A DNA stretch of 32,334 bases from Acidimicrobiia bacterium (lineage in GTDB: Bacteria > Actinomycetota > Acidimicrobiia > Acidimicrobiales > Bin134). Positions 6,923 through 13,592 of this stretch are shown one piece after another (position 1 is the stretch's first letter; each line of letters starts with the position of its first letter). The notes under the pieces were generated by a model. It ran no database searches and had not been told where the DNA came from. It saw only the letters and a program-made list of their open reading frames with translations. Made by a program: the position numbers and the translations under genes. The stretch spans positions 1 to 32,334 of the forward strand of contig JAJDTA010000077.1 of assembly GCA_022827405.1 (NCBI GenBank). Reading direction: 5' to 3'.

Positions 6923-7600
6923 CTATTCGTACACGCCCCGGGACTGGTCCCGGACAATCTGGCCCCGGTCGAGCTCCACAACCCGGCGGCGCATCTTGTC
7001 GACGATGCTCCGGTCGTGGGTGGCCATGACCACCGTGGTACCGGTGCGGTTGATGCGGTCGAGCAGCGTCATGATGCCCAGTGAGGTGTTGGGGTCGAGG
7101 TTCCCGGTGGGCTCGTCGGCCAACAAAATCAGCGGCCGGTTCACGAAGGCCCGGGCGATGGAAACCCGTTGCTGCTCCCCGCCCGACAGCTCGTCGGGAT
7201 AGTTGTGCATCTTCTTGGACAGCCCCACCAGTTCCAATATGGCCGGCACCTTCGACTTGATCACGCTGCGGGGACGGCCGATCACCTCCAGGGCGAAGGC
7301 CACATTCTGCACGACGGTCTTGTTGGGTAGCAGTTTGAAGTCCTGGAAGACGCAGCCGATGTTGCGCCGCAAAAAGGGCACCTTCCAGCTCGGCAGCTCG
7401 CCGATGTCCCGGCCGGCCACGAAGACCCGGCCCCGGTCAGGCTTCTCCTCTTTGTTCAGGAGGCGCATGAAGGTGGACTTGCCCGAACCCGACGGGCCCA
7501 CCAAGAAGACGAACTCCCCCCGCTGCACCTCGCAGGTGGCGTTTTGAAGGGCGAGCACCTCGCCCTTGTACACCTTGGTGACATTCTCCATTCTGATCAT
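6923..7600 (-). CDS. ftsE: Cell division ATP-binding protein FtsE
   Basis: FtsE is the ATPase of the FtsEX complex at the division septum. The 225-residue protein has Walker [10 protein letters not shown] (35-43), Q-loop region [15 protein letters not shown], signature [15 protein letters not shown], Walker [11 protein letters not shown] and the switch histidine in [10 protein letters not shown]. The sequence between Q-loop and signature ([22 protein letters not shown]) is FtsE-like rather than transport-like. The start ATG at 7600 is used; a second ATG at codon 4 is possible. In actinobacteria ftsE normally follows prfB directly, but here a 4.7-kb gene separates them. Confidence 0.96.
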
Positions 7601-7730: not shown

Positions 7731-7762
7731 TGTCAGAAGGGCGGTGTGTCAGAAGGGCGGTG
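7731..7762. repeat. 16-bp tandem duplication at the 3' end of the giant gene
   Basis: TGTCAGAAGGGCGGTG occurs twice back to back, at 7731-7746 and 7747-7762. The copy at 7747-7762 contains the TGA stop of the 1564-residue gene (7749-7751); the other copy lies just beyond the gene in the spacer before ftsE. Sixteen is not a multiple of three, so the repeat lies at the coding boundary and does not extend the protein. Confidence 0.75.
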
Positions 7763-10700
7763 TGTAGTCTTGCCCCCTCCACCACTCGGGAATGTCGCGT
7801 TGAGCAGTGAAGAATGCCCTCCCGACTGGGATCCTGCTGAAAGGATTGAGCCTGGCGTGTACCTCCACCCGATAAGTTCTTCCTTCTTCAAGTTCTCCAA
7901 AAGACTCAGAATACGAAATCCGCGTTTCGCTCGTAACACAATCGCCACTGAAAGTTGTGTGGCTAGCAGGACAAGAGTCGAAACCGGATATTTCGTAACT
8001 TATGGCATCGGGATAAGTATCCCAACTCAACTCCCACTCAATGGGAAAATCGGCGGCTATATTCTGCGATTGAGCCCCGGGAAAGGGTTGAGGAACAGGG
8101 CGAGCCAATACGCTTCCCTGAATGGTGACAGTAATAGTGCTGAGGAAGCTGTCGCCGATATCAGAAAGTGCTTGTACAGACACCTTATATACTCCCCTCG
8201 GCCATTGTTCCGGCAACCGGAGTGGGAATTCTCTAGTTTCCGCGGAAACCTTGTGTTGTTGCAACACGTCAGATGCAGGTAAGCCAGCTCTTGTAATTTC
8301 AATTCTGTAGCCGGTTATGGGTGGCGACCCCTCATCACGTTTAGGCTGCGTCCAAGTCAGAAGGGGGGTGCCATCATCCGCCTCCACGATCCCCAATTGT
8401 CTCACCGGGGGAAGGTCGGGTACGAGCACGCACGCCGGGTGACCTTCGCCAATTGGCCATCCAAGTCGCTGCATTGCACTACAGGAGAATACCCGTGAAA
8501 ACAAAGAATTATGCGATGCAATTCCCTCGTTAAAGGAATAATTGCCGTACTGATCGCTGCGAGTATACCCTTCCCATTCATTGAAAAAATGATGAACTCC
8601 AATGTTGTGGTCCAGTTCATGGGCTGCAACAAATAACGTGCTCCTAAGCCAGGATTCCGAAGGCGCTCGCGGGGCTTCATCACGCGGTTGGCGGCGATGG
8701 ATCGTGCTTAGGGGTCCATTTAGATATCCTCTGCCACCGTACCCATCTGTGTTGGCCAAGCCGGTTCCATATTCGTAGAACTGGTGGGCAAGTCCACTGC
8801 TTCTATTTCCGTCGTAGACCTGTTCCACGCATCCTGGCGAAGGTATTTCTATCACCTCTTCATATGAGGTTTCGAGTATTTGGCCAGCTTCGAATTGAAC
8901 ATCCAGCAGCCCGGATGATTGCCAGCTATAGAAGGGCGCGACCTGCTCATTCAAAGCGGCGACATGGTTATCAATGAAGTCTGCGGAGATGAATGGACGT
9001 AGTTCAGGAGTCGTACACACATGAAACTTGACCCTCAGCAATCCCCGAGGCTGGTTCCACCAAGAATGCGAAATAGCGTCGACAGCAACGTCGCCGCCTT
9101 CTGAGACATTTTGCGCCGCCAGCGGGTTTGTCTGGCCATGGGAATTTTCGCCCCAGCAGGCGATTGTCTCGTCGACTCTGATGGCGCACGAATGGTAATT
9201 ACCGATGGCCATGGCAGTGTAGTGGCCCGCGGGAACACTGAGTCGCCCGTAGTCGTCGTCGCCCCAGCAGGCAATTGCCTCGTCGACTCTGATGGCGCAC
9301 GAATGGTAATCGCCGACGGCGATGGCGGTGTAGCGGCCCGGGGGCGCGTTGGCCGCTCCCCAATAGTTCTGCCCCCAGCAGGCGATCGTCTCGTCGACTC
9401 TGATGGCGCACGAATGGTAAACGCCAACGGCGATGGCGGTGTAGGGACCTGGAGGTGCTTCAAGTTGATCGGTGGTGTAGGGGGCCCAGCAGGCGATTGT
9501 CTCGTCGACTCTGATGGCGCACGAATGGTAAGCGCTGATGGCGATGGCGGTGTAGCGGCCAGCGGGAACATCGTAGTCGCGCGCGGGAACATCGGTCTCG
9601 TCGGAGGTGATGTCGCCCCAGCAGGCAATAGTCCCGTCGACTCTGATGGCGCACGAGTGGGAACCGCCTGCACCGATGGCGGTGTAGCGGCCCGGGGGAA
9701 CATCGGTTTGGCCGGTGATGTTTGAGCCCCAGCAGGCGATTGTCTCGTCGACTCTGATGGCGCACGAATGGTAATGGCCGACGGCGATGGCGGTGTAGCG
9801 GCCAGCGGGAACATCGGTCTCGCCAAATGAGTTTGCGCCCCAGCAGAGGATATTGGAATCAAAGAAGAGATTGCCGATTAGTTGACTTGTCCGGATGGCG
9901 CACGAATGGAAGTCGCTGGCGGCGATGGCGGTGTAGTGGCCCGCGGGAACATCGCTCTCGCCGAAGGTGTTTGAGCCCCAACAGGCGATCGTCTCGTCTG
10001 TTCTGATGGCACACGAGTGGGAATGGCCAGTGGCAATGATCGAGTTTGTTGCATTCGCAGCCGTGCCTATTGTGGTATTTTGGCGGGTCGCATTGTCTGT
10101 CAAGCCCCAGTTATTGTTGCCCCAGCAGGCGATGGTCTCGTCGACTCTGATAGCACACGAATACCAATGTTCGGCTGACAGGTCGCGGGATCGGTCCGCA
10201 GGTGCGCTTGTCAGGCCGTTGCCGCGATGAAGATCGAGGCCCCAGCAGGCGATGGTCTCGTCGACTCTGATAGCACACGAATGTCTTCTACCTGCGGAAA
10301 TGGCGGTGTACCGGCCAGCAGGCGCATCCACCTCTACCTCGTCGAGGCTATCGTGGCCCCAGCAGGCGATGGTCTCGTCGACTCTGATGGCACATGTATT
10401 CCAAAATCCGGCCGATCTGGCGATGTATCGGCCGGTGGGCGCATTTCCCTCGCCTGAACTGATGCTCCCCCAGCAGGCGATGGTCTCGTCGACTCTGATA
10501 GCACACGAATGTCTTCCACCTGCGGAAATGGCGGTGTACCGGCCAGCAGGCGCGTCAGTCTGGCCGTCGATACTGTTGCCCCAGCAGGCGACGGTCTCGT
10601 CGATTTTGATGGCGCACGAGTGCGACTCACCGGCGGCGATGGCGGTGTAGCGGCCCAGGGGTGGATCCGACGATCGAAAATGGCCGATGTCGAAGTTGTA

Positions 10701-12443
10701 GCCCCAGCAGGCGATAGTCTCGTCGACTCTGATAGCGCATGAGTGGAAACCGCCTGCAACGATGGCGGTGTAGCGGCCCGGGGGCGCGTTGGCCTGGCCA
10801 TAGTCGTTCCGTCCCCAGCATGCGAGGGTCTGGTCGGTGCTGATGGTGCACGAGTGGAATCGGCCGGTTGCGATAGCGGTGTGACGGCCCAGAGGCGGAA
10901 GTCCTGGTGGGCTTGGGGTTGCCATTGTCTGGCCGTAGCGGTTGTCCCCCCAACAGGCGAGGGTCTGGTCAACCCTGACAGCGCACGAGTGGGTCTCGCC
11001 CGCGGTAACAGAAATGTAGCGGCCCGCAGGCGCTTCCGACGGGCCGGAGACGCGCTCACCCGAACAGGCGAAAGCCGTGCCGGTTCTGATAACGCACGAG
11101 TGCCCGGCTTCGCTGCGGCCCCAGCAGGCGATGCTCTCATCGACTTTGACGGCGCAAGAATGGGCTTCGCCCGCGGCGATAGCAGTGTAGCGGCCCGCGG
11201 GGGCGTCAAGTTGCCCGTAGTCGTCGTTGCCCCAGCAGGCTAGGGTCTCGTCGACTCTGATGGCACATGAGTGCCCGTAGGCTGGACTGTAGCTCGTGTT
11301 TGCGATGCGCTCTGTGGATCCTCCGACGGCCACGGCGGTAAACCGGCCCTCGGGTCCGGTCGTGCTGTTGCCCGAACAGTGGATGCGCGGCTCCGAGTTA
11401 GCAGCGCACGGGTCGCCCCAACAGGCGATGGTCTGGTCGGTGCTGATGGCGCACGAATGGGATCGACCAGCGGATATGGCGGTGTAGCGGCCCGCCGGGG
11501 CGTCGCCGTACTCGCTGGCAGTCTCAATGTTGTAGCCCCAGCATGCGATGGTCTGATCGGTGCTGATAGCGCAGGAATGCACCTTGCCGGCCGATATGGC
11601 GGTGTAGCGGCCCGCGGGGGCGTCGAGCTGCCCGTAGGTGTCGTTGCCCCAGCAGGCGATGGTCTCATCCACTGCAATGGCGCAGGTATGCCACCCGCCA
11701 GCCGAAATAGCGGTGAAGGCACCCTTCGGCGCATCCAACTTGCCACCCGCGCTGTCGCCCCAGCAGGCGATGGTCTGGCTGGTCTTGATAGCGCACGAAT
11801 GCTTGCTGCCCGCGGTAACTGCAAGGTACTCGCCAGAAGGCAACGGTTCGGGTGTCGGATCGGGCGTGGGGTCCGGCGTCGGATCGGGCGTGGGGTCGGG
11901 CGTGGGGTCGGGTTTGGCGGCGGTGCGCAAGGTGGTGAGGGCGGTGTCGTCAAGCACTAGATAACAGCCGACGGTGCTGTGGAAACCCCAGCTCAGGCGG
12001 GCAAGCACCGTTTGGTGGTCGGCGGTCTTGGCGACGTCCACGGGACTCTTGCCAAACTTGTGGTGATCAAAGCACCGTTCGGATGCATCGGTCGAGGCGT
12101 TAGGCAGACTCTGTGGCGGCGGGGCGGCCCGCAAAACGGCCAGGGCTCGTTGGCCAAGGGTGAGGTAACAGCCGATGGCACCGTGCCAGTTCCAACTCAC
12201 CTGGGCGAGGACAGCAGACCCGTCGGCGGTCTTGGCGACATCCACAGGACTCTCACCAAACTTGTGGTGATCAAAGCACCGCTCCGCCGCACTGTGCTCG
12301 GCTGGCCCATGAGCGATAACTGGATCCCCCGGAATCGCCGTCAGCCCCAACGCCAAGGCAGAAAACGCGATAAGTAGAACAACCCGGCGTCTCACAGCGC
12401 CGGATTTTAGACCGCCAACCGCGTCAACAGCCTCTTTGGACAT
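7749..12443 (-). CDS. Giant secreted RCC1-like repeat protein with metzincin protease and Fn3-like domains
   Basis: This protein has 1564 residues. Residues 18-44 are a signal peptide (RRR, then VVLLIAFSALALGLTAI). Two copies of a Cys-containing unit follow (54-107 and 122-176, each opening ERCFDHHKFG). A PDPT-repeat linker covers about 178-200. From about 202 to 1110 come 23 RCC1/BNR-like repeats with the core HSCAIRVDETIACWG and GRYTAIAAG, enough for about three propellers. Then comes a zinc protease domain: HELDHNIGVHH at 1275-1285 fits HExxHxxGxxH, and CSAMQRLGW (Met 1324) suits the metzincin Met-turn. Two Fn3-like stretches (about 1350-1440 and 1460-1550) end the protein. It is probably a surface or secreted adhesin-protease; substrate unknown. 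It interrupts the usual prfB-ftsE link, and the protease end is clearly lower in GC. Confidence 0.85.
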   Translation of the reverse strand: MSKEAVDAVGGLKSGAVRRRVVLLIAFSALALGLTAIPGDPVIAHGPAEHSAAERCFDHHKFGESPVDVAKTADGSAVLAQVSWNWHGAIGCYLTLGQRALAVLRAAPPPQSLPNASTDASERCFDHHKFGKSPVDVAKTADHQTVLARLSWGFHSTVGCYLVLDDTALTTLRTAAKPDPTPDPTPDPTPDPTPDPTPEPLPSGEYLAVTAGSKHSCAIKTSQTIACWGDSAGGKLDAPKGAFTAISAGGWHTCAIAVDETIACWGNDTYGQLDAPAGRYTAISAGKVHSCAISTDQTIACWGYNIETASEYGDAPAGRYTAISAGRSHSCAISTDQTIACWGDPCAANSEPRIHCSGNSTTGPEGRFTAVAVGGSTERIANTSYSPAYGHSCAIRVDETLACWGNDDYGQLDAPAGRYTAIAAGEAHSCAVKVDESIACWGRSEAGHSCVIRTGTAFACSGERVSGPSEAPAGRYISVTAGETHSCAVRVDQTLACWGDNRYGQTMATPSPPGLPPLGRHTAIATGRFHSCTISTDQTLACWGRNDYGQANAPPGRYTAIVAGGFHSCAIRVDETIACWGYNFDIGHFRSSDPPLGRYTAIAAGESHSCAIKIDETVACWGNSIDGQTDAPAGRYTAISAGGRHSCAIRVDETIACWGSISSGEGNAPTGRYIARSAGFWNTCAIRVDETIACWGHDSLDEVEVDAPAGRYTAISAGRRHSCAIRVDETIACWGLDLHRGNGLTSAPADRSRDLSAEHWYSCAIRVDETIACWGNNNWGLTDNATRQNTTIGTAANATNSIIATGHSHSCAIRTDETIACWGSNTFGESDVPAGHYTAIAASDFHSCAIRTSQLIGNLFFDSNILCWGANSFGETDVPAGRYTAIAVGHYHSCAIRVDETIACWGSNITGQTDVPPGRYTAIGAGGSHSCAIRVDGTIACWGDITSDETDVPARDYDVPAGRYTAIAISAYHSCAIRVDETIACWAPYTTDQLEAPPGPYTAIAVGVYHSCAIRVDETIACWGQNYWGAANAPPGRYTAIAVGDYHSCAIRVDEAIACWGDDDYGRLSVPAGHYTAMAIGNYHSCAIRVDETIACWGENSHGQTNPLAAQNVSEGGDVAVDAISHSWWNQPRGLLRVKFHVCTTPELRPFISADFIDNHVAALNEQVAPFYSWQSSGLLDVQFEAGQILETSYEEVIEIPSPGCVEQVYDGNRSSGLAHQFYEYGTGLANTDGYGGRGYLNGPLSTIHRRQPRDEAPRAPSESWLRSTLFVAAHELDHNIGVHHFFNEWEGYTRSDQYGNYSFNEGIASHNSLFSRVFSCSAMQRLGWPIGEGHPACVLVPDLPPVRQLGIVEADDGTPLLTWTQPKRDEGSPPITGYRIEITRAGLPASDVLQQHKVSAETREFPLRLPEQWPRGVYKVSVQALSDIGDSFLSTITVTIQGSVLARPVPQPFPGAQSQNIAADFPIEWELSWDTYPDAISYEISGFDSCPASHTTFSGDCVTSETRISYSESFGELEEGRTYRVEVHARLNPFSRIPVGRAFFTAQRDIPEWWRGQDYTPPF
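9125..11840 (-). repeat. Array of 23 RCC1-like coding repeats
   Basis: Units of roughly 110-130 bases each encode one HSCAI..DETIACWG core followed by a GRYTAIAAG-type strand. I count 23 cores. The 9,100-10,800 part is the most uniform: a 'gcgattgtctcgtcgact' type block recurs in nearly every unit, suggesting recent duplication or gene conversion. Unit 7 (near 11,060-11,120, GHSCVIRTGTAFACSG) is shortened and follows unit 6 directly; unit 17 (near 9,840-9,900) has an insertion before its Cys-Trp. These repeats also create many long but meaningless reading frames on both strands. Confidence 0.85.
11848..11912 (-). repeat. PDPT-encoding tandem repeat (linker)
   Basis: Twelve-base units of the type GGCGTGGGGTCG / GGCGTCGGATCG recur about five times and encode PDPTPDPTP. 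This makes an extended Pro/Thr/Asp linker between the duplicated N-terminal domain and the RCC1-like region of the giant protein, at about residues 178-200. Confidence 0.8.
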
Positions 12444-12491: not shown

Positions 12492-13592
12492 TCAGCTCAT
12501 GCGGCGCCAGCGGAGGTAGGCTTCTATTAGTTCGTCGAGGTCGCCGGCTAGGACGGCTTCTACGTTGCCGATGGAGACGGCGGTGCGGTCGTCTTTGACT
12601 TGTTGGTAGGGGTGGAGGACGTAGGAGCGGATTTGGCTGCCCCATTCGGTTTTTTGGTGTTCGCCGGCTAGGCCGGCGATTTCGGCTTCTCGTTCGGCTC
12701 GTTTGAGGTCGGCGAGGCGGGCGGCCAGGATCTGCATGGCGCGGTCTTTGTTCTGGTGCTGGCTGCGCTCGTTTTGGCAGGACACCACCACGCCGGTGGG
12801 CAGATGGGTGATCCGTACTGCGGAGTCGGTGACGTTGACGTGTTGGCCGCCTGCTCCCGATGAGCGGAAGGTGTCGATGCGGAGGTCTTTGTCGTCGATG
12901 TCCACCTCGCCGGATACTTCGTCGAAGAAGGGCACCACTTTGAATTGGGCGAAGGCGGTGTGGCGGCGGGCGTCGGAGTCGAACGGTGAGATGCGGACCA
13001 GCCGGTGCACTCCCCGCTCTGATTGCAACAGGCCGTAGGCGTTGCGCCCAGAGATGGTGAAGTCGGCTGAGGAGATGCCCGCCCCCTGGCCCTCCGAAAC
13101 GGAGTCCACCTTGAAGTCGAAGCCGCGGCGCTCGGCCCAGCCCTGGTACATCGCCAACAGCATCTCGGCCCAGTCCTGGGCGTCGGTCCCGCCTGCTCCG
13201 CTGTGCAGCTCGCACACCGCATCGGAGCCGTCGTGTTCGCCACCCAACAGCGAGCGCAGCTCCAGGGCGTCCACTTTGGCGGTCAGAGATTCCAGCATCT
13301 GGGCGATCTCCGGGGCCTGCGACTCGTCGCCCTCCTCCACGGCTAACTCGTGCAGCGTGTCGGCGTCCTCTAGCGCGGCCTCCAACCCGGCAAACAGCTC
13401 AATGTCCTCAGCCAGTTCGGACAGCTCTCGGGTCACCTTGCGAGCCCGGTCGGGATCGTCCCACAGGCCGGGGGCGGCCGCGGCCTTCTCCAGGTCGGGG
13501 CGGCGGGCGATCAGGTCGTCGATGTGCAGGTAGCGGCGGGCTTCGTCGAGTTTGGATCGGAGCAGGGCGAGGTCGCCGGTGAAATCAGACAC
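12492..13592 (-). CDS. prfB: Peptide chain release factor 2
   Basis: RF2 reads UGA and UAA stop codons and triggers peptide release. The 366-residue protein has the GGQ loop (RSSGAGGQHVN), the SPF-type recognition tripeptide (VRISPFDSDARRHT) that separates RF2 from RF1, and the conserved ELHSGAGGTDAQDWAEMLL. The frame is continuous from the GTG start at 13592, with no in-frame TGA near codon 26, so the autoregulatory +1 frameshift of many bacterial prfB genes is absent. It starts 22 bases after secA. Downstream lies the giant repeat gene, not the usual ftsE. The last ~350 bases (12500-12850) use more G/T on the + strand than the rest, a mild composition change. Confidence 0.97.
   Translation of the reverse strand: MSDFTGDLALLRSKLDEARRYLHIDDLIARRPDLEKAAAAPGLWDDPDRARKVTRELSELAEDIELFAGLEAALEDADTLHELAVEEGDESQAPEIAQMLESLTAKVDALELRSLLGGEHDGSDAVCELHSGAGGTDAQDWAEMLLAMYQGWAERRGFDFKVDSVSEGQGAGISSADFTISGRNAYGLLQSERGVHRLVRISPFDSDARRHTAFAQFKVVPFFDEVSGEVDIDDKDLRIDTFRSSGAGGQHVNVTDSAVRITHLPTGVVVSCQNERSQHQNKDRAMQILAARLADLKRAEREAEIAGLAGEHQKTEWGSQIRSYVLHPYQQVKDDRTAVSIGNVEAVLAGDLDELIEAYLRWRRMS

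Follow-up and report, generated by a model that had tools for sequence, protein, structure and literature searches.

The window analysed here is a stretch of 32,334 nucleotides from an Acidimicrobiia bacterium (contig JAJDTA010000077.1, assembly GCA_022827405.1), in which a single intact open frame of 1564 codons, ATG to TGA, runs on the minus strand from position 12443 to 7749. The initial annotation of this frame, which is real, described a signal peptide, two copies of an ERCFDHHKFG unit, a PDPT linker, 23 RCC1-like repeats, a metzincin protease and two Fn3-like stretches (for the revised layout see Table 1). What can be recognised of the signal peptide is a hydrophobic, signal-like stretch, and a GTG at 12395 may be the true start, the paralogues L003 and L005 having GTG at the equivalent valine. 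The number of cysteines (Cys) is even in each region (4 in the Cys module, 48 in the array, 4 in the protease domain, 2 in the rest), and the protein is large, modular, disulfide-rich and probably exported. A Pfam scan of the whole protein up to E 1 left the Cys units and the protease region without a match.

The two ERCFDHHKFG units correspond to the two units of a tandem Cys module that is matched by its profile and predicted as a confident domain (predicted local distance difference test score, pLDDT, 94), and that shares 44–68% identity with the 13 other rows of its alignment (A2). Searches of the module against Pfam, NCBIfam and PDB sequences gave nothing significant, the matches being weak and scattered (best values: Pfam Zn_ribbon_9, E 0.0018; NCBIfam, E 0.0017; PDB, E 1.5). 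Comparison with solved and viral structures (Foldseek, VIA-align) likewise gave nothing significant, which leaves room for a known fold. A phage link was considered and rejected, none of 35 pattern matches in viral contigs being confirmed. The module is a new domain family to be annotated, and it is this module, together with the exchange of its partners, that constitutes the novelty.

At least one Cys unit was found in 52 frames, which divide into 37 complete two-unit frames, seven one-unit frames and eight cut by a contig edge. The module begins before residue 160 in all 37 complete frames and is preceded in 36 by a hydrophobic signal-like stretch, the remaining frame coming from a record that is partly masked. 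The attached parts vary: 24 of the 37 carry at least three RCC1 blades, nine a protease domain of the family in the studied protein (profile A4) and eight both, counts that include the studied protein (P0001) and the rows used to build the A4 profile. Other partners are SLH domains, leucine-rich repeats with PD40, GDSL, CAP with Big_12, Fn3 arrays and other HExxH proteins, with Excalibur below the cut-off; some are repeat-only proteins (RCC1 only, Fn3 only) in which no enzyme was recognised. Four Cys-module genes, two CAP, one RCC1-only and one GDSL, lie within ∼10 kb on contig C121 (L021). At L105:3957-7733 the module is joined to PD40 and leucine-rich repeats, and a 143-residue single-unit frame adjoins on the opposite strand. 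A single relative (L069:100-3189 and L038) combines the module with SLH and the protease, bridging two surface designs, and in another relative the first 4.6 kb of L113 hold a module-RCC1-protease region that is split by in-frame stops.

The studied genome contains ten Cys-module loci. A genome scan for the module returned 50 pattern-matching stretches, of which 26 were confirmed, at 25 loci; scan-positive records that name a taxon are assigned to Acidimicrobiia, Acidimicrobiales or the Sva0996 marine group. Within the genus, which among the sampled genomes makes up the whole family, the module occurs in 17 of 22 genomes. The five genomes without it are small (1.8–2.8 Mb); just two module-bearing genomes are below 3 Mb, each 68% complete. 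In a sample of the class it was detected in six of 395 genomes, five of the same genus and one of a different genus (G233; E 3.5e-4, internal stop) treated as doubtful, and in a sample of the phylum in one of 396, the studied genome itself. Absences in the class and phylum samples are weaker than those in the genus, where all candidates were scored, because only 10 or 11 candidates per genome were scored there. On a tree of PrfB and FtsE from 20 genomes, which leaves 5 of its 16 inner branches open, presence of the module needs two changes, which fits one gain and one loss.

The repeats form an RCC1_2 array of the plant CRINKLY4 type (Pfam E 1.2e-112, 365.7 bits against a cut-off of 22, in 20 stretches), for which the ACR4 propeller is the best match of known structure. 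The profile counts 23 or 24 repeats depending on the cut-off, and the strict motif C-x9-CWG occurs 21 times. Motif spacings, many of 37 residues, give 22 full blades and one half motif in place of the 23 repeats first proposed. Twenty-three of the 24 consecutive pairs formed by the 48 Cys residues are 10 apart. An exact multiple of seven was rejected for this array, the count being 22 and not 21; totals of 7, 14 or 21 in 13 of the 24 RCC1-bearing complete frames, related rows and many of them close kin, are in line with rings of seven. Where repeats have identical residues they use the same codon at a frequency of 0.68, against 0.42 expected from the gene's own codon use, and neighbouring repeats in 684–763 and 975–1086 agree in 11/13 to 13/13 cases, which points to a recent duplication in part of the array. 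RCC1_2 is present in 58 of 198 class genomes; the propeller is therefore ordinary for the class, and RCC1 arrays alone are not the novelty. On contig C123 of the same genome, a 734-residue frame (L029:4422-6623, minus strand) has seven RCC1 blades without a Cys module, and the part ahead of the blades is read by us as SGNH-hydrolase-like.

The HELDHNIGVHH sequence on which the metzincin assignment was based is a complete HExxHxxGxxH motif, and its three histidines and the glutamate are invariant in all 12 aligned rows. The proposed Met-turn at residue 1324 is doubtful and probably not one: M1324 belongs to another motif, the conserved C-x6-G-W close to the C-terminal helix, and is not aligned with the S-x-M that directly follows the third histidine in 10 of 11 relatives, in a loop whose alignment is uncertain. 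No Met-turn residue was found at the expected place in the studied protein or in its nearest relative, L038; both have a longer loop instead. The structure prediction that had been suggested for this region yielded a weak model (mean pLDDT 52); the best solved-structure matches of the domain are adamalysin/reprolysin metzincins (ADAM-8, acutolysin A). The domain stays below the Pfam cut-off (Reprolysin_4, 12.8 bits against 22; E 0.13 when scanned alone), as probably do, judging from their E-values (best 0.0012), the 11 other members; no library searched names the family. The domain is classed as metzincin-like only and is not filed as a metzincin member. A single Fn3 domain was detected (30.9 bits against 25, E 3.1e-7); the second Fn3-like stretch gave no Pfam match and has low pLDDT.

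Table 1. Gene, protein regions and neighbouring genes, with positions in the window.
Feature	Position	Strand	Basis
Whole gene	7749..12443	-	Open-frame analysis
Signal-peptide-like stretch, residues 17-44	12312..12395	-	Hydrophobic stretch, 2.78
Cys module unit 1, residues 53-107 (C56, C92)	12123..12287	-	Profile match, model pLDDT 94, Cys positions
Cys module unit 2, residues 121-175 (C124, C160)	11919..12083	-	Profile match, model pLDDT 94, Cys positions
PDPT-repeat linker, residues 178-202	11838..11912	-	Sequence
Crinkly-type RCC1_2 array, residues 200-1100, 22 full blades and one half motif	9144..11846	-	Profiles, Cys spacing
Half motif, residues 444-462 (C450, C460), 20 residues past the preceding motif	11058..11114	-	2.8 bits
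Metzincin-like protease domain	8415..9044	-	Profile A4, E 2.4e-52 (profile includes this protein as a row)
HELDHNIGVHH zinc motif, residues 1275-1285	8589..8621	-	Sequence, alignment
CSAMQRLGWP, residues 1321-1330, family C-x6-G-W motif holding M1324	8454..8483	-	Alignment
Fn3 domain, residues 1346-1438	8130..8408	-	Pfam fn3
C-terminal region, claimed earlier as second Fn3	7752..8114	-	No Pfam match; low pLDDT
prfB, upstream neighbour	12492..13592	-	Neighbour annotation
ftsE, downstream neighbour	6923..7600	-	Neighbour annotation, empty-site comparison

The gene lies in a secA-prfB-ftsE-ftsX cluster, where it separates prfB from ftsE. FtsE was found at 1e-60 in 20 of the 22 genus genomes, the two misses being 68% complete, and in all 19 relatives with FtsE the site is empty, prfB lying 19–185 nt upstream of ftsE. 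The right flank of the gene, as we read it, still resembles the ftsE leader of the relatives. Directly after the gene, its last codons and stop recur once as a 16-nt direct repeat (7733-7764). The A4 protease family occurs in 17 of 395 class genomes, in five genera; four out-of-genus protease frames were scanned, and Fn3 was present in all four, SLH in three and the order SLH-protease-Fn3 in two. No RCC1 or Cys unit stands beside the protease in the listed out-of-genus frames, some of which are edge-cut. Proteases without the module also exist inside the genus (L156, L157, L162, L173). The protease-Fn3 half is therefore probably the older, its front half having been exchanged; a domain swap is likely, since in other Acidimicrobiia it is SLH repeats that precede related proteases. 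The gene was probably made by such shuffling and gained between prfB and ftsE in its own lineage, and with the empty site still visible in 19 relatives it provides a probable example of a gene gained through the swapping of domains.

Taken together, the data favour, with a probability of roughly 55%, a secreted, probably envelope-held, adhesive protease of domain-shuffling origin. Such a protein would be exported by the Sec pathway, and every Cys unit and every blade would contain a single disulfide; three propellers of seven blades and a spare blade would provide a binding surface, and the zinc protease would cut extracellular protein kept near the propellers. The Cys module would retain the protein on the surface of the cell or mark a common location outside it, as suggested by its being the sole part common to different secreted-looking proteins of the genus, all 37 of which lack a later membrane segment. 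At its origin, the part ahead of the protease-Fn3 half, which in some relatives from other genera consists of SLH surface repeats, would have been exchanged for the Cys module and propellers before the gene was gained at its present site. The features first described are confirmed in part, and the surface or secreted protease with a large binding platform that was first envisaged finds partial support.

Several observations weigh against this interpretation. Twenty-two blades are not a multiple of seven; the genome is a draft in 237 contigs with 5.34% contamination, and its repeat counts may be wrong. Given the weak model, the unrecognisable Met-turn and the Pfam score, the protease-like domain could be a degenerate, inactive relative, and its occurrence without the module in the genus means that the two are not tied. 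Surface retention by the module is suggested by guilt by association and free release is possible, while SLH and the Cys module together in L069/L038 would be redundant if both anchor.

Free release is central to a somewhat unlikely alternative, in which the Cys module would bind a host or a substrate and belong to an enzyme that diffuses and degrades matrix or prey proteins for nutrition. It would explain why none of the 37 complete frames has a later strongly hydrophobic segment and no LPxTG was flagged among the matches listed, and several hydrolases are among the module's partners; however, the module also heads repeat proteins without a recognised enzyme and an SLH protein, for which a common location fits better than a common substrate. 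It is more unlikely still that the protease-like domain is dead, serving a structural or binding role in a pure adhesin: the missing Met-turn residue and longer loop shared with L038 would agree with this, but the zinc motif is whole in the studied protein and its key residues are invariant in all 12 rows. That repeats of different genes were fused into a chimeric frame by the assembly is highly improbable, for although repeats do break assembly here (the ends of contigs C55 and C132, where L024 and L027 start, share sequence within one module-RCC1-protease gene), gene order is conserved in both flanks (prfB and ftsE), the frame is open across 4.7 kb and the same order of module, RCC1 and protease is found on the single-contig record OX638344.1 (L047).

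Among the papers listed by literature searches, none dealt with such a protein. A study of coccolithophore bacteria contains both RCC1 and Acidimicrobi, RCC1 there probably being a culture-collection name. The genus probably lives in sponges, judging from bin names, in which RHO is taken to stand for Rhopaloeides. Excerpts of a paper on a sponge Acidimicrobiia isolate mention neither eukaryotic-like nor fibronectin (PMC12263773). In a survey of ∼1200 genomes from seven sponge species, the text of which is used here in part, eukaryotic-like repeats were low or absent in Actinobacteriota and Fn3 genes abundant, and it was suggested that these bacteria keep their association by other means, which were left open (PMC8163846). 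Limited to its genus and placed at the head of numerous secreted-looking repeat proteins and enzymes, the module is a concrete candidate, open to testing, for such a means. We tentatively propose that the module could be a new domain for surface display or sorting that belongs to a single, probably sponge-associated genus of Acidimicrobiia, heading exchangeable adhesive and enzymatic secreted proteins that would be the lineage's answer, for life with a host, to the eukaryotic-like repeat proteins of other sponge symbionts.

Each part of the protein can be set beside a known system. Like the extracellular propeller of CRINKLY4/ACR4 (RCC1_2, PF13540), the array is predicted to be extracellular and has C-x∼10-CWG repeats of ∼37–39 residues with a presumed disulfide in each blade, a motif and disulfides also given in the portion consulted of the CRINKLY4 paper (PMC4617170), whereas CRINKLY4/ACR4 is a receptor kinase of plants with seven repeats and the bacterial protein has 22 full blades and no kinase. 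The protease domain resembles the adamalysin/reprolysin metzincins (M12B) in HExxHxxGxxH and in the strand-helix order of its weak model; it differs in its sub-threshold Pfam score, its unrecognisable Met-turn and the conserved C-x6-G-W motif. Among the SLH/protease/Fn3 proteins of other Acidimicrobiia, L158 and L160 share the homologous protease followed by Fn3 but carry SLH repeats where the studied protein has its Cys module and propellers, and in this group the spacing to the third histidine is often different, while in L164 Fn3 comes first and SLH last. With the other tandem Cys module proteins of its genus, finally, the studied protein shares the N-terminal double unit that is common to all, whereas the parts attached to it differ.
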